In this document: piece by piece, positions 26,414-55,425 of the stretch
Layout: each line of letters starts with the position of its first letter
Position numbering within the stretch: position 1 is the first letter of the stretch
Origin: Desulfobacteraceae bacterium
GTDB taxonomy: Bacteria > Desulfobacterota > Desulfobacteria > Desulfobacterales > Desulfosalsimonadaceae
Length of the DNA stretch: 64,000 nucleotides
NCBI GenBank assembly: GCA_014237465.1
Contig: JABZFM010000011.1
Span: forward strand, 1-64,000
Reading direction: 5' to 3'
Notes under the pieces: model-generated
What the model saw: only the letters and a program-made list of their open reading frames with translations
Databases searched by the model: none
Told to the model about the DNA's origin: nothing
Position numbers and translations under genes: made by a program

Positions 26414-26434
26414 CAAGAAAAAAGGATATAATAT

Positions 26435-27247: not shown

Positions 27248-27270
27248 AACTGTGTTTAACTTTTTATAAT

Positions 27271-27437: not shown

Positions 27438-27479
27438 ATTACCTGAATTCTTCTTTGAAAGCCAAGCGGTTAAATATTG

Positions 27480-33232: not shown

Positions 33233-33244
33233 GGAGAGAAAACC

Positions 33245-37308: not shown

Positions 37309-37448
37309 TAGTACCTGAACGGAAAGCACATTTTTTGTAGGTTGGGTTGAGCCCGCTCTGACATGTTGGGTTTCGTGCCTCTACCCAACCTACGGGAATC
37401 AAGCATTTAACAAAATAGGATTCCAAAGGGCGAAACCCAACAAATCCT
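37309..37448. repeat. 140-bp interspersed repeat, copy 2
   Basis: Identical base for base to 11470-11609, in the same orientation. Its right edge (37399-37448) supplies the last residues and the stop codon of etfB. Its GTAGGTTGGGT/ACCCAACCTAC hairpin may also end transcription of the acyl-CoA operon. Confidence 0.9.
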
Positions 37449-38094: not shown

Positions 38095-38132
38095 CTGTTA
38101 TTCCTTTCATTGACCATAACAATCAAAAAAAA

Positions 38133-38438
38133 TTATATCGAATCGATCTCGTTTAAAACGTTAATCTCGAGTCTGTCTGATGCAATTGAAAACACTTTAT
38201 CCATAAACTTCCTGACATATGGTGATGAACTGTGAACATTCAGAGCGGTCCTATCTTTATATCGCTCAATAAAAATCAATGTGTTTGGATTTTTTTCGTC
38301 AATATTTAATGAATGGTGAAGAACGCCCTCTTCTTTTGACACCTGTTTCATAAATTCCTTTACAGCAATCAATGCCTCTTCTTTTTTTTCCGGCTTTACC
38401 GGAACCTTTGAAATCACAGAAATCATCAAATTACCCAT
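38133..38438 (-). CDS. Antibiotic-biosynthesis-monooxygenase (ABM) domain protein
   Basis: A 101-residue (or 97, if ATG 38426 is used) single-domain ferredoxin-like protein. Features are VPVKPEKKEEALIAVKEFM, then GVLHHSLNID and FIERYKDRTALNVHSSSPYV, typical of YgiN-type ABM proteins. These often act on quinols or aromatic compounds, but the anaerobic context makes oxygenase activity unlikely. It lies between usp and etfB in the acyl-CoA operon. Confidence 0.85.
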   Translation of the reverse strand: MGNLMISVISKVPVKPEKKEEALIAVKEFMKQVSKEEGVLHHSLNIDEKNPNTLIFIERYKDRTALNVHSSSPYVRKFMDKVFSIASDRLEINVLNEIDSI

Positions 38439-38491
38439 TGCCTTTTAAAATATAACCGCAGATTGATTGATTAAGATCATTTACAAAAGTT

Positions 38492-39424: not shown

Positions 39425-39450
39425 TGCCTCACCTTAATTTCCATTTTTGT

Positions 39451-39584
39451 ACTTTCTCAATAAGCATAGGCCATGTAGCGGAGGTCCTTAGACCTCCATA
39501 CACACGGAGAATTGGAAGGCTAAAGCCTTCCGCTACATGGGTTGCACATGAATTCACATTTATACCCCGGACTTATTGAGAAGT
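39451..39584. repeat. 134-bp MITE-like element with terminal inverted repeats
   Basis: Ends ACTTTCTCAATAAG and CTTATTGAGAAGT are inverted copies (one base indel). Within is a second inverted pair, CCATGTAGCGGAGG and CCTTCCGCTACATGG, plus GGTCC..GGACC-like and GGCTAAAGCC hairpins. It contains no gene and sits between two operon genes. Confidence 0.8.
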
Positions 39585-39596
39585 TACCCATCTTTA

Positions 39597-41639
39597 CTAT
39601 TCATTTTCTATAGATTTAAGCATCATCTGCGCCAGATCCACGACTTCGTATTCTTCTTCCAGGCCCTTTTCCTTCATTGCGTCATCTAACATAATCATGC
39701 AGTAAGGACAGGCAGTGGCAATTGTTTTGGCGCCTGTGGCTGAAAGCTGTTCAAACCTTTCCGCATTGATCCGTTTGCCGATATTTTCCTCCATCCACAT
39801 ACGACCGCCGCCGGCGCCGCAGCAGAAGCTGGTGCGCTCACGCCGCTCCGCCTCCACCAGCTTCACGCCCGGGACAAACCGGGCGATATCCCTGGGGATA
39901 TCATATAAATCATTATAACGCCCCAGGTAACAGGAATCATGGTATACCACCGGCCCCTTGCCGGAAAATTTTTTTCCACCTTTAAACGCCCCTTTTCGGG
40001 TGAGTTCCCGGATCAGTTCCGTATGATGGATAACCTCAAAGCTTTTTCCGAACTGGGGGTATTCATTTTTCAATGTGTTAAAACAATGGGGGCAGGCCGT
40101 AATGATCTTTTTAACGCCCACGGTGTCAAACATTTCAAGATTAAAGTTGATCATGTGCTGGGCCAGATATTCATTACCCAGCCGCCTTGCCGTCTCACCG
40201 CAACACATTTCATTATCGCCCAGACAGACAAAATTGACACCGGCTTTCTGCAGCAATTTAGTAAATGCGATAGTCACTTTTTTATACCGGTCGTCAAATG
40301 ATCCGGCACACCCCACATAAAACAGATACTCAAAATCAGGGTTTTCCTCCGGGGTCTGTACCCCTAACTCTTTGAACCAGTCTCCCCGCGTGTTGGACGC
40401 AAGCCCCCAGGGGTTGGACAAATTTTCACAGCCTTTAAAAAACTGGGTCAATTCTTTGGGAAACCGGCTTTCCACCTGGACCAGGTGACGCCGCATATCA
40501 ATAATATTGTCCACGTGCTCAATCATCAACGGGCAGTTTGAGGTACAATGCCCGCACGTGGTGCACGACCAGATGGCTTCTTCTGATATGACATTTCCGA
40601 TAAGGCTTTCACCGTCCCATTGTTCAAGAAGCGCTGCCTCTTTTTCCGGCTCTTTTTTGAATTTATGAATGGCCGCCCTGCCCATGAGATTTGTCTTTTT
40701 TTTAAGATGATCTCTTTCGTCCATGATCAAATGCATGGGAGACAAGGGCTTGTCTGTGAGAAAGGCGGGACAGTTGGCACGGCACCTGCCGCACTCAGCG
40801 CAGGAATACATGTCCATCCCCCGCTTCCAGGAAAATTCTTCAATTTTTCCCACACCAAACAGGGTATCCTCGTCTTCCAGGTCCTGAGGGGTGAGTTCTC
40901 CTTTTTTCTTGAGGCTTCGCATATACAGGGAAGGCAGGGAGGTGATTTCATGAAACTGTTTACAATAGGGCAGGTAGTTTAAAAATGACAACCCCAGTAT
41001 TAGATGTCCCCAACTGCCAATGGAATGAAGCCGGGCAGTCAGGGGCGCGTCTGCCGTGTGGCCGAAAAAGATAAGAATTTGCTTAACAAAAACGCCTAAA
41101 AAAGCGGCTTTTGCTTCATAATGTTCCGGTGACAAGACCAATTGAGCAGACTCATACAGCAGGTCCATTGCCATCATCCAGAAAATCCAGTTTAAAATGA
41201 CAAGCGCTTCCAAGGAAAGAATCATTCGTGACGGGCGAAAAAAAACGCGATTCACAAACGCCATGGTGCACCCTGTCATAATCGACAAGGTAAACAGATC
41301 TTTAAAAAAAATATAGGTCAGCCCCAGTCCGGTATCGCCAAGCCCGGGCAGGTGCCAGTCCGGCACAAAGCCCCGGCCGGCCATCTGGATAGTGGAAAGT
41401 GTGACCACCACCGCCCCCCAGAAAATCATGATATGGGCAATGCCGTGGACCCGTTCGAAACTTCTTAAAAATCTGAGCTGGCCGAAGAAATACTTGAGTA
41501 TTCCGACAACTCTCTCTTTGGGGTTATCCCAGCGAACATCCGGCTGCATAACAAACAGAGGCAAAAATCGGCGCACAACGCTGAACGTAAACACAGAAAG
41601 AGAAATGAACAGCAACAAACCCATTGCAACCGGGTTCAT
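39597..41639 (-). CDS. Membrane Fe-S oxidoreductase (EMO / HdrD-like), Etf:quinone oxidoreductase
   Basis: A 680-residue membrane protein. The N-terminal 250 residues have about six transmembrane helices with a NarI-like cytochrome-b layout. Two 4Fe-4S motifs follow (CAECGRCRANCP and CTTCGHCTSNCP), then two CCG domains (CGD..CCG near 470, CCGAGGG near 620) as in HdrD. In syntrophs and sulfate reducers such proteins take electrons from EtfAB and reduce menaquinone. The start overlaps the etfA stop (ATGA), supporting this pairing. ATG 41639 is used. Confidence 0.93.
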   Translation of the reverse strand: MNPVAMGLLLFISLSVFTFSVVRRFLPLFVMQPDVRWDNPKERVVGILKYFFGQLRFLRSFERVHGIAHIMIFWGAVVVTLSTIQMAGRGFVPDWHLPGLGDTGLGLTYIFFKDLFTLSIMTGCTMAFVNRVFFRPSRMILSLEALVILNWIFWMMAMDLLYESAQLVLSPEHYEAKAAFLGVFVKQILIFFGHTADAPLTARLHSIGSWGHLILGLSFLNYLPYCKQFHEITSLPSLYMRSLKKKGELTPQDLEDEDTLFGVGKIEEFSWKRGMDMYSCAECGRCRANCPAFLTDKPLSPMHLIMDERDHLKKKTNLMGRAAIHKFKKEPEKEAALLEQWDGESLIGNVISEEAIWSCTTCGHCTSNCPLMIEHVDNIIDMRRHLVQVESRFPKELTQFFKGCENLSNPWGLASNTRGDWFKELGVQTPEENPDFEYLFYVGCAGSFDDRYKKVTIAFTKLLQKAGVNFVCLGDNEMCCGETARRLGNEYLAQHMINFNLEMFDTVGVKKIITACPHCFNTLKNEYPQFGKSFEVIHHTELIRELTRKGAFKGGKKFSGKGPVVYHDSCYLGRYNDLYDIPRDIARFVPGVKLVEAERRERTSFCCGAGGGRMWMEENIGKRINAERFEQLSATGAKTIATACPYCMIMLDDAMKEKGLEEEYEVVDLAQMMLKSIENE

Positions 41640-42595
41640 GACATTTCCTTTTCCAATAGGTCACTCATCTCCGGAATGACTTTAAAAAGATCAGCGACTA
41701 TGCCGAAATCAGCAATTTGAAAAATCGGCGCTTCTTCATCCTTATTGATCGCAACAATCACCTTGCTGTTCTTCATGCCGGCCTGGTGCTGAATGGAACC
41801 GGACAATCCGGCCGCAACATATAAATCAGGGGCCACCATCTTTCCGGTCTGGCCGATCTGAAGGTCGTTGGGCACCCATCCGGCGTCAACCGCGGCACGC
41901 GTCGCCCCGACGGCACCGCCGAAAATATCTGCGAGTCTTTCAATAATTTTAAAATTTTCTGCGCCATTTACCCCGCGTCCGCCCGTTATCACAACGCCGG
42001 CTTCCGTGGGATCAGGCCGTTCACTCACGGTTTCGCGCATCTCCACAAAACGGGTTTTCGTTTGCGGCAGACTGATATCCAGTTGTTCCAGAACAGATTC
42101 CCCCTCGACAGGTTCAGCCGCTGCAAACGCAGTTGTCTGAATCGTAACAACTTTGACCGGTGTAGTGATTTCTATGGTGGCCAGGGCATTGCCGGCCCAC
42201 ATGCCACGTTTAAAAGTTGTCCCATCAAACTCAATGATGTCAGACCCCATGCCGGCATTCAGTTTTACGGCCACACGCGGCATCATGTCCTTTCCCGTGG
42301 TGCCCGAGGCCATGCCAACGAGCATTGCGTCATATTTTTGGGCGGCTTCAGCGGCTACATGAGCCCATTGTTCCGCCGTATAATTTTCCAGACAAGCATC
42401 ATCGGCAATAATAATTTTTGATGCGCCGGATTTTTTCAATTCATCTGCCACACCGGAAATCTCATGACCGATCACAACAACGCAAAGTTCGGCACCCAGC
42501 TTTTCCGCTGCATCTTTGCCGAACGTGATGGCGTTCAATGTTGATTTCTTGAGTTTTCCGTTCTGGTGCTCCGCGATAATACATACACTTGACAT
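41636..42595 (-). CDS. etfA: Electron transfer flavoprotein alpha subunit
   Basis: A 319-residue EtfA. The C-terminal FAD domain is clear: [10 protein letters not shown] near 205, [29 protein letters not shown] near 230-258, then [16 protein letters not shown] (278 region) and [21 protein letters not shown]. It accepts electrons from acyl-CoA dehydrogenases. It overlaps the EMO start by four bases, so they are co-translated. Its beta partner lies 3.5 kb downstream rather than adjacent, which is unusual. Confidence 0.95.
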
Positions 42596-42658
42596 TAAAC
42601 TATCTCCTGAAATTTATTCCCTGATTATCATCATTTTATTCTTACTCTTTCTATACAT

Positions 42659-42753
42659 CTCTCCCTTTCGGGAGGAGGCAGGGGTGGGGGGGGAGACATG
42701 CGCATCATGTTTTTCCCACCCCTGCCGCAACCCTATCCCCATAGGGGGAAAGG
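42659..42753. repeat. Interspersed inverted repeat
   Basis: A perfect 12-bp pair GGCAGGGGTGGG (42677-42688) and CCCACCCCTGCC (42715-42726), flanked by smaller CTCCC/GGGAG and CCCC/GGGG hairpins, inserted between the thiolase and etfA genes. It resembles common intergenic repeat elements and may cause partial termination. Confidence 0.7.
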
Positions 42754-43992
42754 TTATACTTTTTCCAATATATGAATACACATGGCTGCCTCTTCCACGC
42801 CGATATTGCCGCCGCCGTTTTCTGCAAGACCCAGTCGGGCGCCTTCCACCTGTCGATTGCCGGCATTACCCCGCAACTGGAGTCCGAGTTCATAAATCTG
42901 GGCCAGGCCGGACGCCCCGATGGGATGACCGCGGCATTCCAGGCCACCACTCGTATTCACCGGCTGTTTGCCGCCCAGTTTTGTGGCGCCGGTTTCCGCA
43001 TAGGGCCCGCCTTCACCCATGGGACAGAAACCCATGGCTTCTGTTTGATGGATTTCGCCATAAGCAGTTGCATCATGCAGTTCCGCAAGACTGATGTCTT
43101 TTGGTCCCACACCGGCCATGTCATATGCCTGCTTCACCAGACGTTCGCCGATATCTTCGGCATCAAAATCTCTGTCCATACCGGAACCATGAACCGACGC
43201 CCGGATTTTTAAAGGATGGACATTTTTTAACTTTTTTAAATATTCTTCAGAACAGACGATGGCGACCGCCGCACCATCTCCTACCGGCGCGCACATGGCC
43301 CGGGTTAATGGATAAGCAATGGGCCTGTCTGCCAGAACCTCTTCAATCGTCATATCCTGCTGATACTGGGCCATGGGATTGAGTGATCCGTGAAAATGGT
43401 TTTTGGCACAGACCGCAGCCAGTTGTTCCTGGGTGGTTCCGAATTTGCTCATGTGCCATCTGGCTCCCGTGGCATAGGCATCCATGAAAATACTCCGGCC
43501 TTCCCCGGGCGGCGTCTGCCCCTCGGGAATAGTCACCTTGAACTTTTTTGACGCTTTTTCCAATAATTCCATCTGCACATGAAAATTTTCAACATCCATG
43601 GCAGTCGCATACGCGGAAAGGGATTTCATTTTGTCCGGATCAGTGATTTTTTCGGAACCCACGGCAATAGCCACATCATACATCCCGGCCCGGATACCCG
43701 TATATGCCAGATGCAGCGCTGTTGACGCGCCGGCGCAGGCATTTTCCACATTTACCACCGGAATCGCGCCGACCCCCATAGAGCGCAAAACAACTTGCCC
43801 CCGAATCGAGTGCTGATTGGCGAACATTCCCCAGAATGTGTTTGAAAAAAATGCAGCCTGAAGATCCTCTTTTTCCATCCCGGCATCCTTGAGTGACAAA
43901 TTTATCGCTTCATGAGCCATTTCCCGGACATTTCCGTCCGGATATTTATTAAACCGGATCATACCCAGTCCGACGATGTACACATCAGTCAT
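42754..43992 (-). CDS. SCPx-type thiolase (lipid-transfer-protein family)
   Basis: A 412-residue thiolase-fold protein. The active Cys is in NVENACAGAST (about 93), with HD in ELHDATAYGE (about 306) and GHPIGASG (about 358). These match the SCP2/sterol-carrier thiolase class, which cleaves 3-keto acyl-CoA with bulky or branched chains. A separate SCP2-domain protein is in the same operon. ATG 43992 has AAGGAGAA in front. Confidence 0.92.
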   Translation of the reverse strand: MTDVYIVGLGMIRFNKYPDGNVREMAHEAINLSLKDAGMEKEDLQAAFFSNTFWGMFANQHSIRGQVVLRSMGVGAIPVVNVENACAGASTALHLAYTGIRAGMYDVAIAVGSEKITDPDKMKSLSAYATAMDVENFHVQMELLEKASKKFKVTIPEGQTPPGEGRSIFMDAYATGARWHMSKFGTTQEQLAAVCAKNHFHGSLNPMAQYQQDMTIEEVLADRPIAYPLTRAMCAPVGDGAAVAIVCSEEYLKKLKNVHPLKIRASVHGSGMDRDFDAEDIGERLVKQAYDMAGVGPKDISLAELHDATAYGEIHQTEAMGFCPMGEGGPYAETGATKLGGKQPVNTSGGLECRGHPIGASGLAQIYELGLQLRGNAGNRQVEGARLGLAENGGGNIGVEEAAMCIHILEKV

Positions 43993-44007
43993 TAATTTTC
44001 TCCTTAA

Positions 44008-45261
44008 TCATGTTAAATCATTCATACGCGGATATGTTTGAATAAATTTATGGCCCGCAGAAATAGCCAGCGTATCGTTGGATCCGTCTTCTATCAACAT
44101 GGCACGGGCATCCCGGAACAATTTTTCAATCAGATATTCCTTGCTCAGACCGTTGCCGCCGAAAATCTGGATGGCTTCATGGGCCACTTCATATGCTGAC
44201 TGGGTACCGTGAACTTTTGCAATGATTGAATATTCTTCAGCAGATTCTGTATTATTCATGTTATAATTCCATGCCGCGCGGCTCATAAGGCGGGTAGTTT
44301 CTACTTTTCTGAACATTTCAAACAGCTTCATTTGAACGTTCGGATATTCAATGAGCGGTTTACCACCCTGAATCCTGTTTTTGGCATATTCCAGTGCTTC
44401 TTCCATTGCTGCCCTGGCAATACCTATTGAATATAAACCCATTGATGCGGTGGTTAAACTTAATGTTGTTTCAAGGAATACCTCATAGGCTTCCGGACCA
44501 ACAATCAGACAATCTTTGGGCACACGTACATTGTCAAAAAAGATTTCTCCCTGGTTGAGGTCCCGCTGCCCGATCTTATTTAAGGGCGCTCCCTTGCTGA
44601 CGCCGGGAAGATCCAGCGGAATCGTAAAAATACCGCTGCCGGCAAACCCCATGGACGGATCCATCTGACAGAAAAGAAAGCAATGGGTTGCCACTGTCCC
44701 CATAGAAACCCACGCGGCTTTCTGGCCGTTGATGACATATTCATCACCATCCAGCTTTGCCCGACACTGGCCTTTGATGTTGGGATCACTAAATATAGGA
44801 TGACCCGGCATGACCGTATCGGATCCATGATCCGGTTCGGTGATTCCCCAGCAGCCAACAATGCTGGCATCCGTGCATTCACAAAACGGGGTTACAAAAT
44901 TATCAACCAGATAATCTTCTCCGGTAAGCGTTCCGCCAAAAGCAAAAAAGCCGGCAACGCCCAACCCGACCGTTAATCCGACACTTCCCCAGGCGAGCTC
45001 TTCCATAATAATCGCCTGCTGGAGGGGTGTCAAATCAAGCCCGCCATAGGTATCCGGAATATATATTTTATGATACCCCAGCTCATATGCTTTTTTCATA
45101 AACGTCCAAAAGGGAGAATCTTTTGCAATGACCTGTTCCGGGGTCATCTCATCAAGCTCTTTTGCTATGGGACGCATCACCTCTTTTGCAAACCGGTGCG
45201 CACTCTGCCTCAGCGCAATGTCATCTTCATTTAAGTTAATATCAAGGTCTAAATAGTTCAT
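44008..45261 (-). CDS. Acyl-CoA dehydrogenase
   Basis: A 417-residue acyl-CoA dehydrogenase with the complete domain set: LQQAIIMEELAWGSVGLTV, WGITEPDHGSD, VINGQKAAWVS and a C-terminal MLIEDGSNDTLAI, with Glu at the usual base position in a slightly unusual setting. It feeds EtfA/EtfB. It lies between the thiolase and the DUF2148-like genes, 15 and 26 bp away, with a good ribosome site. Confidence 0.93.
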   Translation of the reverse strand: MNYLDLDINLNEDDIALRQSAHRFAKEVMRPIAKELDEMTPEQVIAKDSPFWTFMKKAYELGYHKIYIPDTYGGLDLTPLQQAIIMEELAWGSVGLTVGLGVAGFFAFGGTLTGEDYLVDNFVTPFCECTDASIVGCWGITEPDHGSDTVMPGHPIFSDPNIKGQCRAKLDGDEYVINGQKAAWVSMGTVATHCFLFCQMDPSMGFAGSGIFTIPLDLPGVSKGAPLNKIGQRDLNQGEIFFDNVRVPKDCLIVGPEAYEVFLETTLSLTTASMGLYSIGIARAAMEEALEYAKNRIQGGKPLIEYPNVQMKLFEMFRKVETTRLMSRAAWNYNMNNTESAEEYSIIAKVHGTQSAYEVAHEAIQIFGGNGLSKEYLIEKLFRDARAMLIEDGSNDTLAISAGHKFIQTYPRMNDLT

Positions 45262-45287
45262 GTTAAGTTTCCTTTCTCATAATTGAC

Positions 45288-46127
45288 CTATTTTTTCTTA
45301 TCTTTGTAACGGGCTTCAATCTTGTCCGCATGCTTGACAACGATTTCCGGAACTTCCTCAAACAGAAGCTGCTGATACATTTCCATGGCCTCTTCGGAAT
45401 AGCCGATTCCCATAAATTCCGGCGGCGCCCACCAATCATCCTTGGTCTTGTACATGGGGGTTCCGCCCCCGGGAAATGCGGTAAACATCGTAGGTACACA
45501 ATTCACCATGTCCTGTTTGTCCATTTCATAAGACATGCTCTTGTGCATTTCCTCCCGGTTGTAATAGACCATATCCCTTGGCGGTCCCAGCACAAGTCCA
45601 ATATTAGCATCCATATCCGGCAGAAATCCCAGCGCATGCAGGGCAAATCCGACGGATCCCATGATCCGGTTATCCACCCGGTACTGCCAGGCAGACGCAC
45701 AGGCCCAGTCACAAGCCATGGCCCAATCCAGTACTTTCCAGTTGCAGGACGGCCCACCCATCTGCCCGCCGCCCTTGTACTCCTTGCTGTAGGCGTTAAA
45801 TTCCTTACAGGTATCATGTCCGCAGGCCCCGCAGTTCCAGTTCAGATTTGATTTACTGACCTTGGCACCGATGTTGATAATGACCGGTGACTCTCCCTTT
45901 TCATAGCATTTTTTTATCGTCTCATAGTCCCATTGGATATACCGCATCACCTTGGCAACAGGCCCCATGACTTCGATGATGGGCTCCAGGTCCTCACCCC
46001 AGATAATTTCCGCCTCAATTTTTGTCTTGCCGGTGATCTGGGGAGCCTTATGAATAGCCAGCACAATACTTTTTGCCACCTCGATCACATGATCCAAATA
46101 ATATTCTTTTCCGATTAAATGTCCCAT
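45288..46127 (-). CDS. DUF2148-like ferredoxin-domain protein 1
   Basis: A 279-residue protein with a CGACGHDTC cluster motif (residues about 99-107) in the context NWNCGACGHDTCKEF, and further Cys at PSC, ACDWAC. These are typical of the uncharacterised ferredoxin-domain family DUF2148. It lacks transmembrane helices and a signal. Its start overlaps the stop of the next gene upstream, so the two DUF2148-like proteins probably form a complex and may carry electrons for the neighbouring acyl-CoA enzymes (inference). Confidence 0.75.
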   Translation of the reverse strand: MGHLIGKEYYLDHVIEVAKSIVLAIHKAPQITGKTKIEAEIIWGEDLEPIIEVMGPVAKVMRYIQWDYETIKKCYEKGESPVIINIGAKVSKSNLNWNCGACGHDTCKEFNAYSKEYKGGGQMGGPSCNWKVLDWAMACDWACASAWQYRVDNRIMGSVGFALHALGFLPDMDANIGLVLGPPRDMVYYNREEMHKSMSYEMDKQDMVNCVPTMFTAFPGGGTPMYKTKDDWWAPPEFMGIGYSEEAMEMYQQLLFEEVPEIVVKHADKIEARYKDKKK

Positions 46128-46936
46128 TATTCATCGTCTCCTTCCGGCCCTTCCGATTTTTTCGGTTTTGGAATCCATTTTCGATAATCAAACCCCCGGA
46201 TAATTCGAGCGGTCTGATAAATCTTTCGGGTATTATCCAATACCTTGTCCATGTTGATGAGATGGTAATCCACATTCACATCCACGTATGGATTTTTAGG
46301 TTTGACCGCCAGCGGGACTCCCACCACCATCCCGGACTTGGGGCAATACCCCATTTTCTGACCCGCCATGCCCATGCTGGCAAACGGCCGGGCATCCACC
46401 ATCAACGTGGCAGCCGCCCAAAGCGCGCTGCCCACCGCATACCCCAGATCACCCACCCGGGCCGTACACAAGGGACCATCAATCATCCGCTCAGATGACC
46501 GGTCCGTAATATCCACCAGGCCGTATTTCTGGGTTTTCTGTTCATAAAAATATCCACAATCCAGTGTTCCCCCGCACATGCCGCAACCGGCATCCAGCGG
46601 CGTTTCATGGCACCGGGTGTTACCCAGAAAAATGATAACATCCGAGTCTCGCACCATCACGGCTTCATACAAAAACGCCTCCTTCCAGCTTTCCTGTTGG
46701 TGAGCGATTTCTTCTACTTTGCGGGCAACTGCCTCAAGCTCTTCCTGTCCATAGACAATATGCGCCTCAATCGAGGGCACGCCGCCGGCAAACGGCGCCG
46801 TCATCGCCGCATCAACCATCAGTCGAGCAGATTCCAGCGCACACTTCTTTCGGCGAATATCCTGGGGCGACCATGACGGCCAATCACTGATGTATTCTTC
46901 ACCCTGAAAATTCAGGTCTTCTACATATTTTTTCAT
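46127..46936 (-). CDS. DUF2148-like ferredoxin-domain protein 2
   Basis: A 269-residue paralogue of the product of 45288-46127. Cluster motif DAGCGMCGGTLDCGYF lies near residues 117-132; the GVPLAVKPKNPYVD segment is near 225. AGGAG precedes ATG 46936, and the one-base overlap with the next gene implies coupled translation. Two divergent copies side by side in a CoA-degradation operon are unusual. Confidence 0.75.
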   Translation of the reverse strand: MKKYVEDLNFQGEEYISDWPSWSPQDIRRKKCALESARLMVDAAMTAPFAGGVPSIEAHIVYGQEELEAVARKVEEIAHQQESWKEAFLYEAVMVRDSDVIIFLGNTRCHETPLDAGCGMCGGTLDCGYFYEQKTQKYGLVDITDRSSERMIDGPLCTARVGDLGYAVGSALWAAATLMVDARPFASMGMAGQKMGYCPKSGMVVGVPLAVKPKNPYVDVNVDYHLINMDKVLDNTRKIYQTARIIRGFDYRKWIPKPKKSEGPEGDDE

Positions 46937-46974
46937 TCCATTTTCTCCTATTTGGTTTTTCGCGTAACAGGAAT

Positions 46975-48582
46975 TTATTTGTAATCCATAAATGCAAACA
47001 CATTATCCGCATCTTTTGAAAATTCATCTCTTAATACCCGGTCCAGGTTCTTTTCAGACGCGGTTTTTGGTATTTCATCCACCACCTGAAGAAAAGACGG
47101 GATAGAATTGCCTTCAAGGCTTTGCCTGCAATGGGCAAACACGGATTTTGGATCTATGGCATTGCCATTCATGGGAACGACTGCCGCCACCAGATCACTT
47201 TCACCTGGTGCCCCTGACTCCGCCGGGATACCATAAACACACACATCAGTGATATCTGAATGTACGGCAATAGCTGATTCCACGTACTGGGGTTGAATAA
47301 AATCACCTGACCGCCGCAAACCACCGCCGGCCCGATAGTCAAAGAAAAACCATCCTTCCTCATCTGTATGTCCCATGTCACCGGTACGCAGCCAGCCGCC
47401 CCGGGTCTTTTCTTGTGATGCCTTCTTCTTACCCAGATAATCCACTTCCATCTTTTGCCCGACCAGACGGAAAATGATCTGCCCGGTTTCACCCGGCGCA
47501 CATTCCATATCGTCTTTACGAACCACTTTCATTTCCATCAAACCCTCAAGCGGCTTGCCGAAAGATCCAATGGGTCCGACGCCCGGGGCTTTATGCGCAA
47601 ACCCGCCCTCGACTGCGCCATACCACTCATGAATCATCACACCGAATCGTTTTTCAAACGTTTCCCAGATGGCTTTTGGCGTTCCCGCGCTTAATACCAG
47701 GCGAACCGGGTTATCCGCGTCATCCGGTTTGGGCGGTTCACTGTAAATCCCCATCATCATGCCGCCTAATAAAGAAAATGATGTACACCCATATTTTCGG
47801 CAAATATCCCATATCCGGCTCTTGGTGAACTTTGTACTAATTACGGATGGAATTGAAAGCATCAGAGAAGGAACCATGGTAGCAGCCTGTGCATTACCGT
47901 GTGTGAGGGACAAACCGGTATACAGTTTATCTTCAGCCGTATACTGCCAGACAAACTGGGCAAGCTGGGCAGGCAAAGCAATGCGGTCGCCCTTGCTCAC
48001 AACCCCTTTAGGGTCACCGGTAGTACCGGATGTATAAATCACCTCTATGGGTACCGCTATTTCATCGCTACGGTTATCAGGTGGAGGTGCCTCCGGAGCA
48101 TTGCATATTTCATTTAATGACGGATATACATCCGTTACCGGCACCTTCATGTTGTCTTTATAGGATACACTCAAAACAGATGCATCCGGGACATCCGGCA
48201 ACACTTCTTCGACATTCGCCAAAAACTCACTGGTAAGAATGATACCTTTTGATTTTGAATCATTTAACATATAGGCCAGCCTTTGCCCCTTGACCCGCGG
48301 GTCGATGGGAACCATTACCGCACCGAGAAGCGCTCCGGCATATAATGAGTACAAAAATTCCGGATGGTTTCTCATAAGCAGCGCGAATGCATCACCTTTT
48401 CCAATTCCGGCATCCTGCATCAGCCCGGCAATTTTTCGGCCCTGAATAACGATATCCTTATACGTCACGATCTCTTCAGCATAATTGCCGTTTTCAAAAG
48501 TGACCACATTAAAATCAGGCTTGCTTTCCGCCCGGGTATCCAGTTCATAGGCAAAATGTCCGGGAACTTTACTTTCTGTCAT
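46975..48582 (-). CDS. AMP-forming acyl-CoA ligase
   Basis: A 535-residue ANL-superfamily ligase that activates a carboxylic acid with ATP and CoA. Motifs are YTSGTTGDPKG (about 189-199), EWYGAVEGG near 320, the GDMGHTDEEGWFFFDYR stretch near 400-417 and a C-terminal catalytic Lys in PKTASEKNLDR. It resembles the CaiC/fatty-acid ligase group. It would supply substrate to the SDR, dehydrogenase and thiolase of the operon. GAAAGGAGAA precedes ATG 48582. Confidence 0.93.
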   Translation of the reverse strand: MTESKVPGHFAYELDTRAESKPDFNVVTFENGNYAEEIVTYKDIVIQGRKIAGLMQDAGIGKGDAFALLMRNHPEFLYSLYAGALLGAVMVPIDPRVKGQRLAYMLNDSKSKGIILTSEFLANVEEVLPDVPDASVLSVSYKDNMKVPVTDVYPSLNEICNAPEAPPPDNRSDEIAVPIEVIYTSGTTGDPKGVVSKGDRIALPAQLAQFVWQYTAEDKLYTGLSLTHGNAQAATMVPSLMLSIPSVISTKFTKSRIWDICRKYGCTSFSLLGGMMMGIYSEPPKPDDADNPVRLVLSAGTPKAIWETFEKRFGVMIHEWYGAVEGGFAHKAPGVGPIGSFGKPLEGLMEMKVVRKDDMECAPGETGQIIFRLVGQKMEVDYLGKKKASQEKTRGGWLRTGDMGHTDEEGWFFFDYRAGGGLRRSGDFIQPQYVESAIAVHSDITDVCVYGIPAESGAPGESDLVAAVVPMNGNAIDPKSVFAHCRQSLEGNSIPSFLQVVDEIPKTASEKNLDRVLRDEFSKDADNVFAFMDYK

Positions 48583-48657
48583 TTAATATTTCTCCTTTCG
48601 AGGTCAGATTGCCGAATTAGAAACCAAAATGATTTTATGACGGCAGCCTCTACACGG

Positions 48658-49056
48658 TTAATCAATCGGTACATTATGCTTTTTGCAGAATTCCGGGAAA
48701 ATCGGATAAATGGGTTTTAACGCCGGCGTCATTTTCAACATTTTGGGGATCGGCCCCTTGGCTTTAATTTTGCGGGTTGCCAATGCGACCGGCAGCGACA
48801 GCTTTTTCAGCCAGAACAAAACAACCGTATCCGCAGACATTTCCATTCTCAGGACGGCATCCCGGTTTGCTTCCTCTCCGGTTATAACGTTATCTGCGTC
48901 AATATATATATAACCATCCGGGTCTGTTATTTTATACCGGTAACTAACCTCATAAGCCCTTAGTTTTTCTCCCAGTCCTGCTTCGAATACGATATGTTTC
49001 CACAAATCTTCCAAAAATTCATACATATGCTTCTGATCTTTAAAATAAACGCCCAT
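48658..49056 (-). CDS. SCP2 sterol-carrier-domain protein
   Basis: A 132-residue single-domain protein of the SCP2 lipid-binding fold: YKITDPDGYIYIDADNVI, then DAVLRMEMSADTVVLFWLKKLSL, with ATRKIKAKGPIPKML giving the usual basic end of the domain. It could present a bulky lipid-CoA to the enzymes. The start is ATG 49056 with AAGGAGG, not the in-frame ATG at 49107. Confidence 0.88.
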   Translation of the reverse strand: MGVYFKDQKHMYEFLEDLWKHIVFEAGLGEKLRAYEVSYRYKITDPDGYIYIDADNVITGEEANRDAVLRMEMSADTVVLFWLKKLSLPVALATRKIKAKGPIPKMLKMTPALKPIYPIFPEFCKKHNVPID

Positions 49057-49182
49057 GGTGTCCTCCTTTTTGTTTGTTTGGTTCTTAACTACGCTTGTCA
49101 AATACACTTTACCTTGATTTGAACTCTAAACATTGTTCACGATCAAAAAAATGAACCTTTCTTTTTAGAAACCACAAAATAA

Positions 49183-50013
49183 CTACTTAACCCCCATCGC
49201 CTTATCCAATATCCCACGGCCAAAAACAAAGCTTTGAAGTTTGATATAAAAATTCGGAAAATGTCTTTTGATGGACCACCAGAGCTTAGCATCCGGCTGT
49301 TTTATCGCATACGTTTTGTTTTTTTTGACACACTTTATGATATGACGGCTGACGCCTTCGGCGGATCCCATGGATTTGTTAAAGAACGCATCCATTCGGT
49401 CATATGATTTTTTATCAGTAGAGCGGGTCTGATCCAATAAGTTGGTTTTAAAAAACGTGGGGCAGACAACTGTGACGCCAATATTTTGGTATTTCAGTTC
49501 AGGTCTAAGGGTTTCCGATAAGGAAATAACAGCGGCTTTGGTCACATTATAGGGCCCCATTTCCGCCATGGCGCAAAATCCGGCAGCAGATGAGATATTG
49601 ACAACATGCCCGCTGCCCTGTTTTTTAAACAGCGGTATGAATGCTTTGCAGCCATGGATGACGCCCATGAGATTGATGTCGATAATCCAGCGCCAGTCTT
49701 CAAGTTTGACTTTTTCCATCACACCGACATTCAGAACACCCGCGTTATTTACGATGATATCGGTCCCACCCCATTTTGAAACCGCAGCATCCGCAAGTTT
49801 TTGCACCTGTTCCCATTTTGTGACATCACATTGGACGGCAAAACCTTCGCCACCAGATTCATTGACCAATTTGACAGTTTCTTTGGCGCCGTCCAGGTTG
49901 ACGTCACTAACCAGAACCTTCCATTCCTTTTTGGCAAATTCGATCGCAAGCGCACGTCCCAGGCCGCTGCCGGCTCCGGTGATCACAACCCGTTTTTTGG
50001 GAAATTTTTTCAT
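49183..50013 (-). CDS. Short-chain dehydrogenase, first gene of the acyl-CoA oxidation operon
   Basis: A 276-residue SDR: TGAGSGLG (residues 12-19), NNAG near 89, catalytic Ser (SSAAG) near 142 and YNVTK near 157. It may oxidise a hydroxyl group on the substrate or a hydroxyacyl-CoA; not determinable. The sigma-54-like promoter at 50122-50137 and enhancer element B lie directly upstream. AAGGA is 10 bp before ATG 50013. Confidence 0.9.
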   Translation of the reverse strand: MKKFPKKRVVITGAGSGLGRALAIEFAKKEWKVLVSDVNLDGAKETVKLVNESGGEGFAVQCDVTKWEQVQKLADAAVSKWGGTDIIVNNAGVLNVGVMEKVKLEDWRWIIDINLMGVIHGCKAFIPLFKKQGSGHVVNISSAAGFCAMAEMGPYNVTKAAVISLSETLRPELKYQNIGVTVVCPTFFKTNLLDQTRSTDKKSYDRMDAFFNKSMGSAEGVSRHIIKCVKKNKTYAIKQPDAKLWWSIKRHFPNFYIKLQSFVFGRGILDKAMGVK

Positions 50014-50121: not shown

Positions 50122-50137
50122 TGCAAACGGCATGCCA
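50122..50137 (-). promoter_or_regulatory. Sigma-54 (-24/-12) promoter for the acyl-CoA oxidation operon
   Basis: On the minus strand TTGGCAT-GCCG-TTTGCA reads TGGCAT-N5-TTGCA, one change from consensus with exact GG-N10-GC spacing. It is 72 bp from the two-box element B and about 110 bp before ATG 50013. Confidence 0.75.
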
Positions 50138-50208
50138 AACTTATTACAATTTGTAATTGCTCGATATTTAAGTATATTTAAAAATTTATCAAAAACAAAA
50201 CATCTGCT

Positions 50209-50247
50209 GCGCCATTATATAGTCAATTGGTGCCAAAATAATGGCAC
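50209..50247. promoter_or_regulatory. Two-box palindromic enhancer element B
   Basis: GCGCCATTATATAGTC (50209-) followed by GTGCCAAAATAATGGCAC (50230-50247), with box centres about 21 bp apart. It aligns without gaps to element A (23706-23743) and its second box is the same as in element C (52233-52248). Confidence 0.7.
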
Positions 50248-50295
50248 TTTCGCCAAATTTTACGATTAACTCCTGATAAGAATTTCATAGCCCTG

Positions 50296-50330
50296 AAAAA
50301 AGAAAAGCCGGGAGCAATTAAGCCCCCGGC
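50296..50330 (-). terminator. Intrinsic terminator
   Basis: On the minus strand GCCGGGGGC-TTAATT-GCTCCCGGC is followed by a TTTTCTTTTTT tract. It ends transcription of the secreted paralogue C gene before enhancer element B. Confidence 0.85.
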
Positions 50331-50372
50331 CTTGATTAAGACTGAAATCATTTATTAATTCATTTTGATGGA

Positions 50373-51812
50373 TTATGGCAAATTTGCTCCGGGATCATTA
50401 CCAAGCGCTTCGAACTCCTCGGTGCTCATATACTGAATCTCAGGAAAGTATTCTCCCAATACACTTTCTTCGTCACCTGTCGCTAATACTTTTTGAATTG
50501 CGTGTTCAAAGCCAGGTGAAGGAAGCATATGGCGTAGAATAAGATGCCCGTCATCCAGGTTTCCTGCGCCATCACCATTTTCTCCCCAATGCAGCCATTT
50601 CACCCCATATCTATCCTCTGCGTTTGAGGGACGGTCTTCGACAAGGCATACGACGATCGTATAAAAACCATTGTCGTCAAGCGGGACTTGTTCATCATAG
50701 ACGCCATCAATGACCTTTGTGGTAACCAACGACTCGTTTGTGGTAATCGACCAATAGCGCATGTCCACATCGCCGTCCATGAAATCGCCATCCATGAATG
50801 GGTCGCGCTGGTATGTCTCGGGCGTAATGGGCGCCTTTGCTCGAATGACCGCAACCTCGCCGTATCTTCGGTCCAAAAGAACAGACATATACTGATTGTC
50901 CAGGTTTGCATACTGAGCTACTTTATAGGGCGGTGTCGGCAAGGTTAACCCCACATACCAGGCCGTGACCGTATGAGCGATATCAAAGGTTTTCATCCAG
51001 TCCGGCGGATCCTGAGCCGGGAAGTACTCCGGCATTTCACCAGCATATTCATGCCATGCATAACCGCCTCGCAGATAACCGTAGGTAAACGGATCCATGG
51101 GCATAACAGGAAGAGGAGTGGGGTCAATGGACAATACAGCGTATGAAGCCTCTGTATCCAGCTCCTCACCGCTTGCCATGGTCACACGCGGTTCCGGCAG
51201 TCCCACGCCGCCGGTAATATCACGGTTTTTGTCCATAACATAGATACGCCACGCCAGAGTGAGCGCACCCTGATCACCGGCTTTGGCATACAGTGTATTT
51301 TGCATCCGATCGGCTGGATCTTCGGGCGGAAGCTCATTTAGAATTGTAATAATGAAGTCACGATTGTACACCGAATTTCGTTTTGCGCCTGGCAAAAAGG
51401 GATTTTCAGAGCCCGGATCCGGGATAATCTGTGTATCGTTCAAAGCATCGGTTGGCGCACCGCTGACCGCATCATAGGAATTAATGGATATATACCGCGC
51501 ATGTGCATATTTGCACACCAGCTCCAGTGTGGCACCTTCGGGTATCGTGCATTTTGCTGACCAGTATGCTGCGCCGGTATCCGGAAACGCGATGTTAAGC
51601 TCCGGATTGATAAAGATGTCATAGGGCCCTGCCCACAGGGGCGTATTGATCGGGAACTCATTTTCAGCCGCATGGGCGGTGAGCGGGCCCATGAGCAAGA
51701 CGGATACGGCAATGGCGAATGCAACAGAAAGCAGCGTATACTTCACCGTCACTTGTTTAAAATGGTTAAAATGGTTAAAATGTTTAAAATGTTTAAAATG
51801 TTTTTTCTCCAT
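50373..51812 (-). CDS. Secreted paralogue C with repeat-encoded signal peptide start
   Basis: A 479-residue exported protein of unknown function. The N-terminus is MEKK followed by HFKHFKHFNHFNHFK, encoded by five tandem 9-bp units; then a hydrophobic core and a signal cleavage region at about 49 (TAHAAE). Family motifs are CKYAHARYISIN near 105, IIPDPGSENPFLPGAKR near 140, VDMRYWSIT near 345 and C-terminal YMSTEEFEALG, the last shared with 12565-14916. AGGAGAC lies before ATG 51812. It has its own sigma-54 promoter (52122-52137) and a leader of about 300 nt with a 13-bp repeat tract and a hairpin. Confidence 0.8.
   Translation of the reverse strand: MEKKHFKHFKHFNHFNHFKQVTVKYTLLSVAFAIAVSVLLMGPLTAHAAENEFPINTPLWAGPYDIFINPELNIAFPDTGAAYWSAKCTIPEGATLELVCKYAHARYISINSYDAVSGAPTDALNDTQIIPDPGSENPFLPGAKRNSVYNRDFIITILNELPPEDPADRMQNTLYAKAGDQGALTLAWRIYVMDKNRDITGGVGLPEPRVTMASGEELDTEASYAVLSIDPTPLPVMPMDPFTYGYLRGGYAWHEYAGEMPEYFPAQDPPDWMKTFDIAHTVTAWYVGLTLPTPPYKVAQYANLDNQYMSVLLDRRYGEVAVIRAKAPITPETYQRDPFMDGDFMDGDVDMRYWSITTNESLVTTKVIDGVYDEQVPLDDNGFYTIVVCLVEDRPSNAEDRYGVKWLHWGENGDGAGNLDDGHLILRHMLPSPGFEHAIQKVLATGDEESVLGEYFPEIQYMSTEEFEALGNDPGANLP
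51757..51801. repeat. Five tandem 9-bp repeats inside a signal-peptide coding region
   Basis: Units TTAAAATGG, TTAAAATGG and three TTAAAATGT (plus strand). Being 9 bp, they keep the frame and encode HFN/HFK in the minus-strand gene. Slippage would change length of the signal peptide's N-region without breaking the gene. Confidence 0.9.
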
Positions 51813-51881
51813 ACGAAGTCTCCTTTTTTATTTAATTGGATTAACGCAGGCATGCTCACAAAGCATCCCTTTGCTTTATTG

Positions 51882-51906
51882 ATACAATGGCGGAATGCCA
51901 TTGTAT
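51882..51906. promoter_or_regulatory. Perfect 10-bp inverted repeat in the leader
   Basis: ATACAATGGC-GGAAT-GCCATTGTAT. It lies about 70 nt before the start of the secreted paralogue C gene and inside its predicted leader. It could be an operator or an RNA hairpin. Confidence 0.55.
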
Positions 51907-52041
51907 TCGACCAAACATTGACCTTTTTCCAATATTCAAACCCGGACTCCTGAAGACTGCTGCATATCTCGAACAGATGTTCATTCTTCGACTTCATCCG
52001 GTGTTTTTACAGATCAACCATTTAATATCCTGAACATGCAG

Positions 52042-52090
52042 ACAAAAAGAGAAAACAAAAAGAGAAAACAAAAAGAGAAAACAAAAAGCA
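52042..52090. repeat. 13-bp tandem repeat, about 3.7 units
   Basis: ACAAAAAGAGAAA is repeated three times and followed by a partial unit. It is in the transcribed leader just downstream of the sigma-54 promoter of the minus-strand paralogue gene. Confidence 0.9.
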
Positions 52091-52121
52091 GACCAATAAG
52101 CGGACAATCAGTATTATTCAA

Positions 52122-52137
52122 AGCAAAAATGATGCCA
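52122..52137 (-). promoter_or_regulatory. Sigma-54 (-24/-12) promoter for secreted paralogue C
   Basis: On the minus strand TGGCAT-N5-TTGCT with exact GG-N10-GC spacing (one change from consensus). It is 74 bp from enhancer element C. Confidence 0.75.
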
Positions 52138-52210
52138 AACATCGCAAACATAATAACATGCTGGAATTTTTATATAATACAAAAACAGGAATCCCATCGA
52201 AACTTCATTT

Positions 52211-52248
52211 TGCTGTTATATGGTCATTAAAATGCCAAAATAATGGCA
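52211..52248. promoter_or_regulatory. Two-box palindromic enhancer element C
   Basis: A degenerate box GCTGTTATATGGTC (from 52212) and TGCCAAAATAATGGCA (52233-52248). The second box is the same as in element B. It is 67 bp before the sigma-54 activator's ATG and 74 bp from the leftward promoter, so it could serve both activation and autoregulation. Confidence 0.7.
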
Positions 52249-52314: not shown

Positions 52315-55300
52315 ATGCCGAAAAAAACACCCGCCTTTTCCAATGAACAGTGGCGATTCCTTGCTGTTTTAGATGCTCTTGGCAGCAATGTTCCCATAGA
52401 TATTCTTGGATTCCTGGTGCCCCTCCCCCCCGGGCCTTTATTTGAAGTGATAAAACAATCCAAAAAAATGGGTTGGCTTATTTCAAAACATGAAGATCAT
52501 TTTTCTCTATCTGAAAAACTTCCGGATAATGTTCAAAACCAAATCTCAACCATAAACACCCCTGCCCAGCTGAATATGATTGCGAACCAGCTGCGAAATT
52601 TTGAACCGTTATCACCGTCGATTTCAAAATGGATCATGCAATTAATAAAAAGGAGCGACATTTCTATTGAATCCATAGAGTTTGAAACAGACTTTGCAAA
52701 TCAACTTTTGGAATACAATCTGGATGGGCAGGCCTGGAATCACCTCAATCATGCGTCCGGCCTGATGGTTGCTTATCTTCGCAACGATGAGATTAAGCAA
52801 TTATATGTCTCAACTGTTCTCACCTTATCCTGTCTTTCGTTCAACCTGGGGCGGGGATTAACCGATGTTGAAGGTTCACTGGTCAAAGCGATGGAAGTTG
52901 CCCGGGAACTGGGAGATAAGCGTTCACAGGCGTTGATTAATATGCACCTTGGATGGCTATATTACTTTTCTGACAGGCGGGAAAATGCATTGGCTGCATT
53001 GTCTTTTGGGCTTAATGAAATTGAAGATATCTCGGATGAGGATATCCTCAACCAGTCGGCTGTGTTCCTTGGTTTGTTTTATTATATGCAGGGATTGTTC
53101 GCAGAAGCCTTGCCTCATTTGGAACGGGCCGCACGGCTTTATGAGACAGAGAATAATAAAAGAATGGCTTATCCGATTGCGACTTTTTTTCTCGGGTTTT
53201 GCCTGACATATCTTGGCGAATTTCACCAAGCCATCGGCAGCCTGGACTTTAACTGGCGATTGGCCATTGAACGATCAAACCATAACCTGGCCACCACGCT
53301 CCGCGTGGTTTTAGGAACCATATTACTCCTGATAAATAAAAAAGAAGAGGCTTTTTTTCATCTTGAAGAAGCCCGACAAGAAGCGGAAAAATACGAAAAC
53401 GCCTTTGCTTTACATCTGCATCCAGGTCCTATAGCGTTAAATCTGAGAAATACCGGTCGGACCAAAAAAGCTTATGATCTGTTGATGCAATCCAATATTA
53501 AAGGCGTCAAAGCCGGTTTGATTCGCCAGTTTTCTTCTCCGTGGTACCTCGAGATGGTCTTTGAGTTCGAAGAGATGAATTTTTCATTACCCGCTGCCCT
53601 ACGCTTTAAAAATCTCATGAAACGGGCATTTAAGGAAAACAATGTTCATCTCATGGGCGTGGCACTTCGATTGCAAGCATTAGATATGATGGAAAAAAAC
53701 AAAAAACCGGATTCCATACGGGACACTCTTGAACAAAGCGAAACCTATCTTAAACAATCCGGTGATATTGTCCAGATTTCAAAAACACTTATTCAAAAAT
53801 CCCGATTTGAACTCTCAACAGGCAATACGGACAAAGCAAAAGACCTTGCCAAAAGAGCATGGGCACACTTAGGCGGATATGCGGATGACTTTTTTCCGGA
53901 TGACTTAAGAAGCCTTGTTAAACCTATAAAAAACAAACATCATCAAACGGATATGCCGCGGGAATCCCTTGAAAAATATATTGAGCTGACAGAATCCATG
54001 TTTCCCGTAAACAGCCAGGATGAAGTCCTCCAAAGAGCTGTTATTGCATCCAACCGATTCTATGGTGCTGAGCGAGGCGGAATTTTCTGGTTCCCCGGCG
54101 GAAAGCTGACCAGAAATCCTGAACTGAGGGCATCGTGTAATCTGTCAATAAATGATACCCGATCCGAGAGTTTCAAGCTGAGCCATGAATTAATTATAAA
54201 AACATTTAACGAAAACCGGCCGGGTTTAATACGCAGCGAGATCAAACACAGTGCCGCTCTGGACAGGCCTATTACAGCGGCATTATGCCTGCCCATAAAA
54301 ATAAGGGAAAAAATCCGGGCTGTGTTGTACCATGACAACTCCTACATGGAAGACTGCTTTGATTTTCTTGATAATGAAACACTTATAAGGATGATGGATC
54401 ATATCAGCCGCCAGGTCGCAAGGATATGGGAATACTCCCGGTTGAAAGAAGAACGAAACAGCCTGATATCTGAAAAGCATCTTCACGATAAACCAACAGG
54501 TAAATCTGAGTTGGTGTTTAAAAGCTACGTGATGGACAATTTAATCAACCAGGTGGATAAAGCTGCCGGTTCCGATTCTACCATCCTGATCCTTGGCGAA
54601 AGCGGTGTTGGTAAAGAGTTGATCGCCCGTCGGGTTCATGCCATGAGCCCACGACATGATAAGGCATTTATTGTCGTCGATGCCAACACCATACCCGAAG
54701 GGTTGTTTGAAAGCGAACTCTTTGGTCATGAAAAAGGCGCCTTTACCGGAGCAGACCGCCAGAAAAAAGGACGCCTTGAAATCGCAGACAAGGGCACCCT
54801 CTTTATTGATGAAATCGGGGAACTGCCTAAATCCATGCAAGTCAAATTATTACGCGCCATCCAGGAAAAAACATTTGTACGGGTGGGCGGCACACAGACC
54901 CTGCATTCGAATTTTCGCCTGGTTGCGGCTACGAACCGCGACCTTGCCCAGGAAGTCACTATGGGAAACTTCAGAGAGGATCTTTATTACCGTTTGAATG
55001 TGGTTCCCATTCATATTCCGCCTTTAAAAAAACGAATTGGCGATATACCGCTTCTATCCAATTATTTCATGGTCCAATACGCCAAAAAATACAATCGTGA
55101 GAACCTGTATATCGACGCTGAAACGGAAACATTGTTAAAACAGTATCAATGGCCCGGCAATATCCGGGAGCTTGAAAACATCATTGAAAGAGCGGTTCTT
55201 CTTTCATCGGGAAACTTGCTTGAAATCGATCTGACACTGCATACACACAAAAAAAGCGCTTATTCTTTCGAAGACATGCCGACCCTTGATGAACTGCAGC

Positions 55301-55425
55301 GCAGATACATTCAATACGTTATTGACAAAACAGATGGCAAGATCAGCGGGTCGAACAGTGCCAGCGAAATACTGGGTGTAAAAAGAACAACACTTCAAGC
55401 AAAGATTAAAAAGTTAAAAATATGA
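52315..55425 (+). CDS. Sigma-54-dependent activator with TPR and GAF sensor region
   Basis: A 1036-residue enhancer-binding protein. Residues about 1-90 look like a winged helix, 100-540 are TPR-like helical repeats, about 560-720 a GAF domain, 740-970 an AAA+ domain (Walker A GESGVGKE near 761, GAFTGA near 808, Walker B FIDEI), and a C-terminal Fis helix-turn-helix (last 50 residues, ISGSNSASEILGVKRTTLQAKIKKL). All sigma-54 signatures are intact. ATG 52315 with AAGGAG is preferred over an in-frame ATG at 52264. It sits beside element C and is the best candidate to bind all three two-box elements. Its HTH is related to the one at 320-3481. Confidence 0.9.
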   Translation: MPKKTPAFSNEQWRFLAVLDALGSNVPIDILGFLVPLPPGPLFEVIKQSKKMGWLISKHEDHFSLSEKLPDNVQNQISTINTPAQLNMIANQLRNFEPLSPSISKWIMQLIKRSDISIESIEFETDFANQLLEYNLDGQAWNHLNHASGLMVAYLRNDEIKQLYVSTVLTLSCLSFNLGRGLTDVEGSLVKAMEVARELGDKRSQALINMHLGWLYYFSDRRENALAALSFGLNEIEDISDEDILNQSAVFLGLFYYMQGLFAEALPHLERAARLYETENNKRMAYPIATFFLGFCLTYLGEFHQAIGSLDFNWRLAIERSNHNLATTLRVVLGTILLLINKKEEAFFHLEEARQEAEKYENAFALHLHPGPIALNLRNTGRTKKAYDLLMQSNIKGVKAGLIRQFSSPWYLEMVFEFEEMNFSLPAALRFKNLMKRAFKENNVHLMGVALRLQALDMMEKNKKPDSIRDTLEQSETYLKQSGDIVQISKTLIQKSRFELSTGNTDKAKDLAKRAWAHLGGYADDFFPDDLRSLVKPIKNKHHQTDMPRESLEKYIELTESMFPVNSQDEVLQRAVIASNRFYGAERGGIFWFPGGKLTRNPELRASCNLSINDTRSESFKLSHELIIKTFNENRPGLIRSEIKHSAALDRPITAALCLPIKIREKIRAVLYHDNSYMEDCFDFLDNETLIRMMDHISRQVARIWEYSRLKEERNSLISEKHLHDKPTGKSELVFKSYVMDNLINQVDKAAGSDSTILILGESGVGKELIARRVHAMSPRHDKAFIVVDANTIPEGLFESELFGHEKGAFTGADRQKKGRLEIADKGTLFIDEIGELPKSMQVKLLRAIQEKTFVRVGGTQTLHSNFRLVAATNRDLAQEVTMGNFREDLYYRLNVVPIHIPPLKKRIGDIPLLSNYFMVQYAKKYNRENLYIDAETETLLKQYQWPGNIRELENIIERAVLLSSGNLLEIDLTLHTHKKSAYSFEDMPTLDELQRRYIQYVIDKTDGKISGSNSASEILGVKRTTLQAKIKKLKI

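Follow-up and report, generated by a model that had tools for sequence, protein, structure and literature searches.

NtrC, NifA and FhlA represent the class of one-component sigma-54 enhancer-binding proteins with a C-terminal Fis-type HTH. The system described here, centred on an activator gene at position 52315 of a 64-kb window (the whole stretch of DNA analysed), shares with that class an AAA+ domain with a GAFTGA loop, a putative Fis-type HTH, paired upstream palindromes, an IHF-like site and a -24/-12 promoter. It differs in its sensor half, made up of winged-helix-like, TPR and GAF parts, and its family differs in having palindrome arms that depend on the activator subfamily and in its putative lipid targets.

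The nearest operators found in print are those of DVU2894 (yGTCA-N6-TGACr) and Vibrio cholerae FlrA (GTCA-N6-TGGC), both assigned to flagellar genes (PMC4641369). Their N6 palindrome is that of the TGCCA boxes (TGCCA-N6-TGGCA type) of this locus, and the half-site is almost identical. The first-pass annotation did not recognise a lipid-metabolism regulon with this binding sequence; the box itself is not wholly unfamiliar. Here, however, they are paired about 22 bp apart at a fixed distance from a promoter, a feature that the accessible portion of the same source does not mention for DVU2894 or FlrA (PMC4641369). Sigma-54 promoters have also been predicted on genes for acyl-CoA dehydrogenase, 3-hydroxyacyl-CoA dehydrogenase, thiolase and enoyl-CoA hydratase. 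Such predicted control of fatty-acid oxidation is enriched mainly in Clostridia and Bacilli, and Desulfobacteria hold the largest numbers of EBP genes (PMC12316311). These are the same kinds of gene as lie behind our elements, but no such activators or operators appear in the accessible part of that study (PMC12316311). A literature search, with most subscription journals outside it, found no description of this activator family, its operators or a sigma-54-controlled wax-ester synthase.

Paired palindromes and sigma-54 promoters

Elements A, B and C each carry two 16-bp palindromes (Table 1). The TGCCA-N6-TGGCA boxes that the first-pass annotation had described as common to all three were found where it placed them, and the distances it claimed from the putative sigma-54 promoter to the nearer palindrome also hold, at 72 bp for A, 73 bp for B and 74 bp for C. 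The activator gene (52315-55425) likewise adjoins element C, its start being 66 bp from the outer C box.

Table 1. Features of the window and of related elements elsewhere in the genome. Positions refer to the window unless preceded by C26 or C10.
Feature	Position	Strand	Details
Element A, two tandem palindromes	23707..23743	.	21 bp apart, bidirectional; CGCCATTATAATGGCG 23707-23722 and TGCCAATATAGCGGCA 23728-23743
Element A, main putative -24/-12 promoter	23815..23829	+	CGGCACGAATATTGC, towards WS/DGAT
Element A, weaker putative -24/-12 promoter on opposite side	23618..23632	-	TGGAATGAATATTGC; whole-element minus-strand match E 2.2e-16
Element B, two tandem palindromes	50210..50246	.	21 bp apart; exact TGCCAAAATAATGGCA 50231-50246, weaker one 50210-50225
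Element B, putative -24/-12 promoter	50123..50137	-	TGGCATGCCGTTTGC
Element B, IHF-like site	50154..50166	-	TATCGAGCAATTA; position as in related elements; alone not significant (p = 0.35)
Element C, two tandem palindromes	52211..52248	.	22 bp apart, inner one degenerate; exact TGCCAAAATAATGGCA 52233-52248, weaker one 52211-52226
Element C, putative -24/-12 promoter	52123..52137	-	TGGCATCATTTTTGC
Element D	C26:680-716		R1 genome search
Element E	C26:15777-15813		R1 genome search
Element F	C10:41123-41160		R1 genome search
SDR gene stump	23298..23471	-	57 codons; homologous to start of intact SDR behind D
WS/DGAT wax-ester synthase/acyltransferase, candidate A target	24016..25566	+	PF03007, PF06974; start picked by reading
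Candidate co-transcribed genes after WS/DGAT	25601..28385	+	orphan 25601-26413, SDR 26435-27247, alpha/beta hydrolase 27477-28385
Operon B	37399..50013	-	paralogous to C50 operon
Terminator-like stem and T run	50304..50333	-	strong stem, 12 pairs; between secreted-protein gene and B
Secreted-protein candidate, putative C target	50373..51812	-	479 aa; signal-like N terminus; no Pfam match at 0.001
Sigma-54 activator	52315..55425	+	winged-helix-like N end, TPR array, GAF, AAA+ with GAFTGA, putative Fis-type HTH

Single boxes are not enriched. The window holds 32 matches with up to two mismatches against 36.6 expected, and the genome holds 67 against 64 and 49 for the reversed control. Since these counts are close to chance, they were left out as evidence for a regulon. 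Element C by itself was not significant against shuffles (p = 0.18). The departure from chance lies in the box pair plus promoter, not in the single box.

The source genome (5.09 Mb, 70 contigs, 99.96% complete; the window opens a 155-kb contig and covers its first 64 kb) was searched with a sequence-only two-box model, R1, built from six sequences. Six places scored E 1.2e-6 or better, namely elements A to F. The runner-up, C50:122583, reached E 0.3 and all later places had E above 1. The 137-position model R2, which includes the promoter, found the same six elements at about 1e-21 or better. It also matched the opposite strand of A (2e-16) and of D (3e-19), and the C50 place scored 9e-7. R1 scored 150 of 1584 candidates and R2 150 of 2915, so weaker sites may be missed. 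The genome-wide search for boxes with a -24/-12 promoter proposed in the first-pass annotation thereby yielded three elements beyond A, B and C, and the distance from promoter to nearer box is 72-74 bp in all six. The genome has one sigma-54 gene (a single PF04552 match).

Both models were built from the very sequences, A to F, that they match, and a leave-one-out test was run for this reason. The elements scored 30.4-43.2 against a maximum of 26.9 anywhere else in 182,603 bp, and the best non-member place was always the C50 element. As A and D are duplicates, omitting either one is not an independent test.

The activator and its family

The AAA+ domain of the 52315 protein matches PF00158 at E 2.6e-66 and its GAFTGA loop can be read in the translation. 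The putative C-terminal Fis-type HTH matches PF02954 at E 0.00025 and 21.2 bits, slightly below the 22-bit cut-off, and aligns with the HTH of related activators. The predicted fold of the sensor half has a mean pLDDT of 85.2. In structural alignments its TPR part matched Rap/NprR (Z 22-23), APC/C subunits (Z 25) and MalT domain III (Z 21.1, rmsd 5.2 over 342); for its GAF part the match was 3ci6 (Z 15.3, rmsd 2.9 over 142). The N end is called winged-helix-like from predicted secondary structure. The TPR matches, made with a predicted fold, say little about the ligand; a lipid or acyl-CoA would be a guess from the targets.

A search with an alignment of the sensor half gave 40 family loci. 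One comes from an isolate, Desulfatibacillum alkenivorans DSM 16219 (L093, with a TGTCC pair), and the others come from MAGs. Adding the window copy and three paralogues from its own genome brought the total to 44, and after removal of L087, L100, L106 and L107, which have no upstream DNA, 40 were examined. A qualifying sigma-54 promoter was found in 37 of these. The two-palindrome layout beside the activator gene was significant against 500 dinucleotide shuffles in 30 of the 40 loci at p < 0.05 (28 at p < 0.01), which are not all independent because several share one genome. Spacing in the 30 significant loci is 22 bp in 25, 21 bp in four and 23 bp in one. Their promoter distances fall into two groups about one helical turn apart, 60-64 bp (18 loci) and 71-76 bp (12 loci). 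L073, L079 and L082 failed the layout test and had no promoter by the rule used, with boxes visible in L079 and L082; L068, L069, L081, L088, L094, L099 and window element C also missed p < 0.05.

An IHF-like site is apparent over the set. After removal of L088, L094 and L099, the summed score over 38 intervals was 515 against 472 for shuffles (sd 6.6, highest shuffle 488), the interval for E having been taken 2 bases too long. Scores of at least 14 of 16 occurred in 22 of the 38 intervals against 8.7 expected, and 17 of these 22 sites share their place and orientation. Tested singly, none of the window elements had a significant site. An SCP2-like gene was matched in 24 of the 40 loci; in 23 it is the adjacent gene on the divergent side.

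A more distant paralogue (31%) was seen at L064 (G000 C23:80000-99000), beside genes for pterin-, B12- and URO-D-type methyltransferases. Its boxes are TATCGATATATCGATG and TATCTAAAAATCGATT (p = 0.016), with a putative sigma-54 promoter 74 bp on.

Operator arms and recognition helices

The palindrome arms vary with activator subfamily and include TGTCA, TGTCC, TGTTC and GACC, among others. In a maximum-likelihood tree of 40 activators, clade I (nine members, support 100/100) has TGTCA-type boxes wherever upstream DNA exists (L100 has none for box reading), imperfect in L068 and L069. The exception is the window activator, which has TGCCA boxes and a long branch (0.63). In clade II, TGTCC appears in one or both boxes of 15 of the 19 members, for the most part at 60-64 bp; the others are L095 with GACC, L099 with none, L087 without upstream DNA and L094 with a run of N. 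A contig equal in length to that of L094, L042, has TGTCC boxes visible by eye. The genome bin PL23a_bin.76 has four family activators (L074, L077, L078 and L081), with boxes TGTTC, GCTC, ATTGA and one unclear, which make it a natural set for testing insulation.

The recognition helix reads LKRTTLxARM in most of clade I and MKRTSLYNRM in most of clade II. MDRATLYHR occurs with TGTTC, MHRATLYHR with GCTC, and the window protein has VKRTTLQAKI. This joint change of arm and helix is a correlation along the tree and does not prove a code. A pairing of residue with base (Asn with TGTCC, Ala with TGTCA) can be made out, but it is confounded with the tree and has exceptions, and we claim no residue-to-base code.

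Genes behind the elements

Control of lipid storage by element A, as proposed earlier, rests on the domain match of the predicted WS/DGAT. Operon B encodes an SDR, an SCP2-like protein, an acyl-CoA ligase, two DUF2148 proteins, an acyl-CoA dehydrogenase, a thiolase, EtfA, an Fe-S oxidoreductase, Usp and EtfB. Its earlier description as 12 or more genes is plausible, but the same-strand genes number 11 to 13 depending on whether the operon runs from 50013 to 37399 or to 35525, with gaps of up to about 400 bp. Behind D are genes for an SDR, acyl-CoA dehydrogenase, APH-fold protein, thiolase, 3-hydroxyacyl-CoA dehydrogenase and enoyl-CoA hydratase, then acyl-CoA dehydrogenase, SDR, FMN oxidoreductase, hydratase, dehydrogenase and hydrolase. 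The E target is a small hydrophobic protein with no Pfam match. Element F sits between the gene of a 59%-identical paralogue of the 52315 activator (on C10) and an operon for SCP2-like protein, acyl-CoA dehydrogenase, ligase, thiolase, EtfB, EtfA and nitroreductase. The first gene of this operon had no Pfam match at 0.001 and is called SCP2-like because it aligns at 37% with the SCP2 gene of operon B. No flagellar gene was recognised behind A to F, the C and E targets being without a Pfam match.

The candidate secreted protein behind C has relatives in 10 matching stretches of the genome at E 0.001 or better, among them window 9975-11243, 12565-14919 and 50373-51812 and G000 C50:103220, C23:86361-87680, C39:82278 and C20:71833. 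A family activator lies about 15 kb from the stretch on C50 and another about 3 kb from that on C23, and none of the four tested had a Pfam match. A predicted fold of the C-target protein was discarded (mean pLDDT 41, two sequences only). Short tandem repeats occur at about 51760-51800, encoding an HFKHFNHF stretch at the start of the protein, and at about 52044-52090 in its leader (AAAAAGAGAAAAC type).

Two further regulators were observed in the window. One is a second sigma-54 activator with four PAS domains (284-3481); the other, perhaps a second lipid regulator, is a 917-aa protein of MalT/LuxR type with two acyl-CoA dehydrogenase genes next to it (28627-34363).

Duplication and distribution

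Elements A and D represent two copies of a single bidirectional control region. The copies share 76% identity across 306 bp and 74% across another 189 bp. Copy A retains WS/DGAT and the SDR stump, and copy D the intact SDR-led oxidation operon. Operon B has the gene order of the operon beside the genome's own TGTCC activator on C50, with identities of 73% (SCP2), 75% (ligase), 95% and 90% (DUF2148), 75% (dehydrogenase) and 85% (thiolase). This likeness indicates that operon B was copied or moved under TGCCA control. The first DUF2148 gene (window 46127-46936 against L063:11133-11921) stands at 95% beside 73-90% for the other operon genes, which suggests gene conversion between the paralogous operons.

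The TGTCC model R3 (14 sequences) found one place per genome in 12 of 26 genomes, with 150 candidates scored in each. In eight of the 12 it lies within about 210 bp of a listed family activator. In G010, G011, G014 and G015 no family activator was among the matches listed on the R3 contig; the G010 place adjoins an SCP2 gene. Across an evenly drawn sample of 389 genomes of the class, R2, run with stricter filters, matched at E 1e-6 or better in nine and at more than one place only in the source genome, to which the five-site TGCCA set is confined in this sample. TGCC-type arms occur in G051, beside a distant activator of 34-36% identity, and in G306, where the TGCC-like match (L187) has no family activator in its 3.1 kb and none matching in the surrounding 13 kb (L191). 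Such arms are therefore not confined to the source genome, and it is the five-site set that was seen only there.

Discussion

The earlier proposal placed the wax-ester synthase, the secreted protein and an acyl-CoA operon in one sigma-54 regulon under 52315. Comparison supports this proposal, through the three further elements, the recurring layout and the arms that follow subfamily. We consider it likely that 52315 is a one-component sigma-54 activator that switches the lipid and secreted targets of A to E together and has grown, by duplication and operator change, from a family with one operator each. Its Fis-type HTH would bind as dimers to the two tandem palindromes, the DNA from there to the promoter would be bent, probably by IHF, and the AAA+ ring with its GAFTGA loop would remodel sigma-54 RNA polymerase at the -24/-12 promoter. 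The protein would thus act on the wax-ester synthase unit (A), two acyl-CoA oxidation operons (B and D), the secreted protein (C) and the small membrane protein (E), in response to a signal sensed by its TPR/GAF half. We infer binding of 52315 to A-E from its proximity to C together with the arms that follow subfamily, and to A, B, D and E from the likeness of their boxes to those of C.

The paralogue beside F could cross-bind A to E, and 52315 and this C10 protein might recognise one relaxed operator, with A to F shared and no private TGCCA specificity. The inner box of F, TGGCAATATAATGACA, is indeed near that of E, TGGCAATATAATGGCG, and all six elements align well. Clade I elsewhere nevertheless keeps TGTCA, and only the window protein combines TGCCA arms with a changed recognition helix; we regard a shared operator as unlikely. 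It is far less probable that the boxes serve a different regulator, for instance a flagellar activator of the FlrA/DVU2894 type (GTCA-N6-TGRC), and that the neighbouring activator is incidental. The motifs are alike (DVU2894 yGTCA-N6-TGACr, FlrA GTCA-N6-TGGC; PMC4641369), but the arms track the subfamily of the neighbouring activator, layout and distance do not vary, and none of the genes recognised behind A to F is flagellar. A chance meeting of palindromic half-sites and sigma-54-like promoters would fit the ordinary frequency of single boxes; for the set it is refuted by the leave-one-out scores and the recurrence in 30 of 40 loci, and we give it next to no credence.

The origin of the regulon is a separate matter. 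Most likely a local activator was duplicated, its operator changed and a lipid regulon was gained. A family activator would typically have one operator beside its own gene and drive a divergent SCP2/acyl-CoA operon; the 52315 copy would have arisen by duplication, with its operator passing from TGTCA to TGCCA, and would have gained targets through copying of the A/D control region and takeover of operon B. We infer the direction of these changes. The TGCCA regulon might instead have been imported ready-made with its activator, which we think rather doubtful. No match to the WS/DGAT elsewhere in the 25 genomes searched exceeded 34% identity, so that its gene may be an import; the activator sits on a long branch, and none of the other genomes sampled has the five-site set. 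Against import, 52315 groups inside clade I with a paralogue from its own genome (in a set of five), and the DUF2148 gene of operon B is 95% identical to the C50 copy of the same genome and at most 88% identical to those elsewhere in the loci compared.

It is an even call whether TPR-type activators with rigid geometry freely change their operator letters to become mutually insulated pairs (TGTCA, TGTCC, TGTTC, GCTC, ATTGA, GACC and TGCCA, up to four pairs per genome), one of which escaped its one-operon role to reach a five-site lipid regulon. After the change of key, the bidirectional region would have been copied, each copy keeping a different arm, and an operon of the kind driven by a sister activator would have been captured.

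The regulon as read here would tie sigma-54 to acyl-CoA oxidation and wax-ester synthesis in Desulfobacterales. One activator of the family appears to have moved from a single target to five, offering a readable case of regulon birth in which enhancer geometry stayed constant whilst operators and recognition-helix residues changed. The recognition code of Fis-type activators and the insulation of paralogues would thereby become directly testable.
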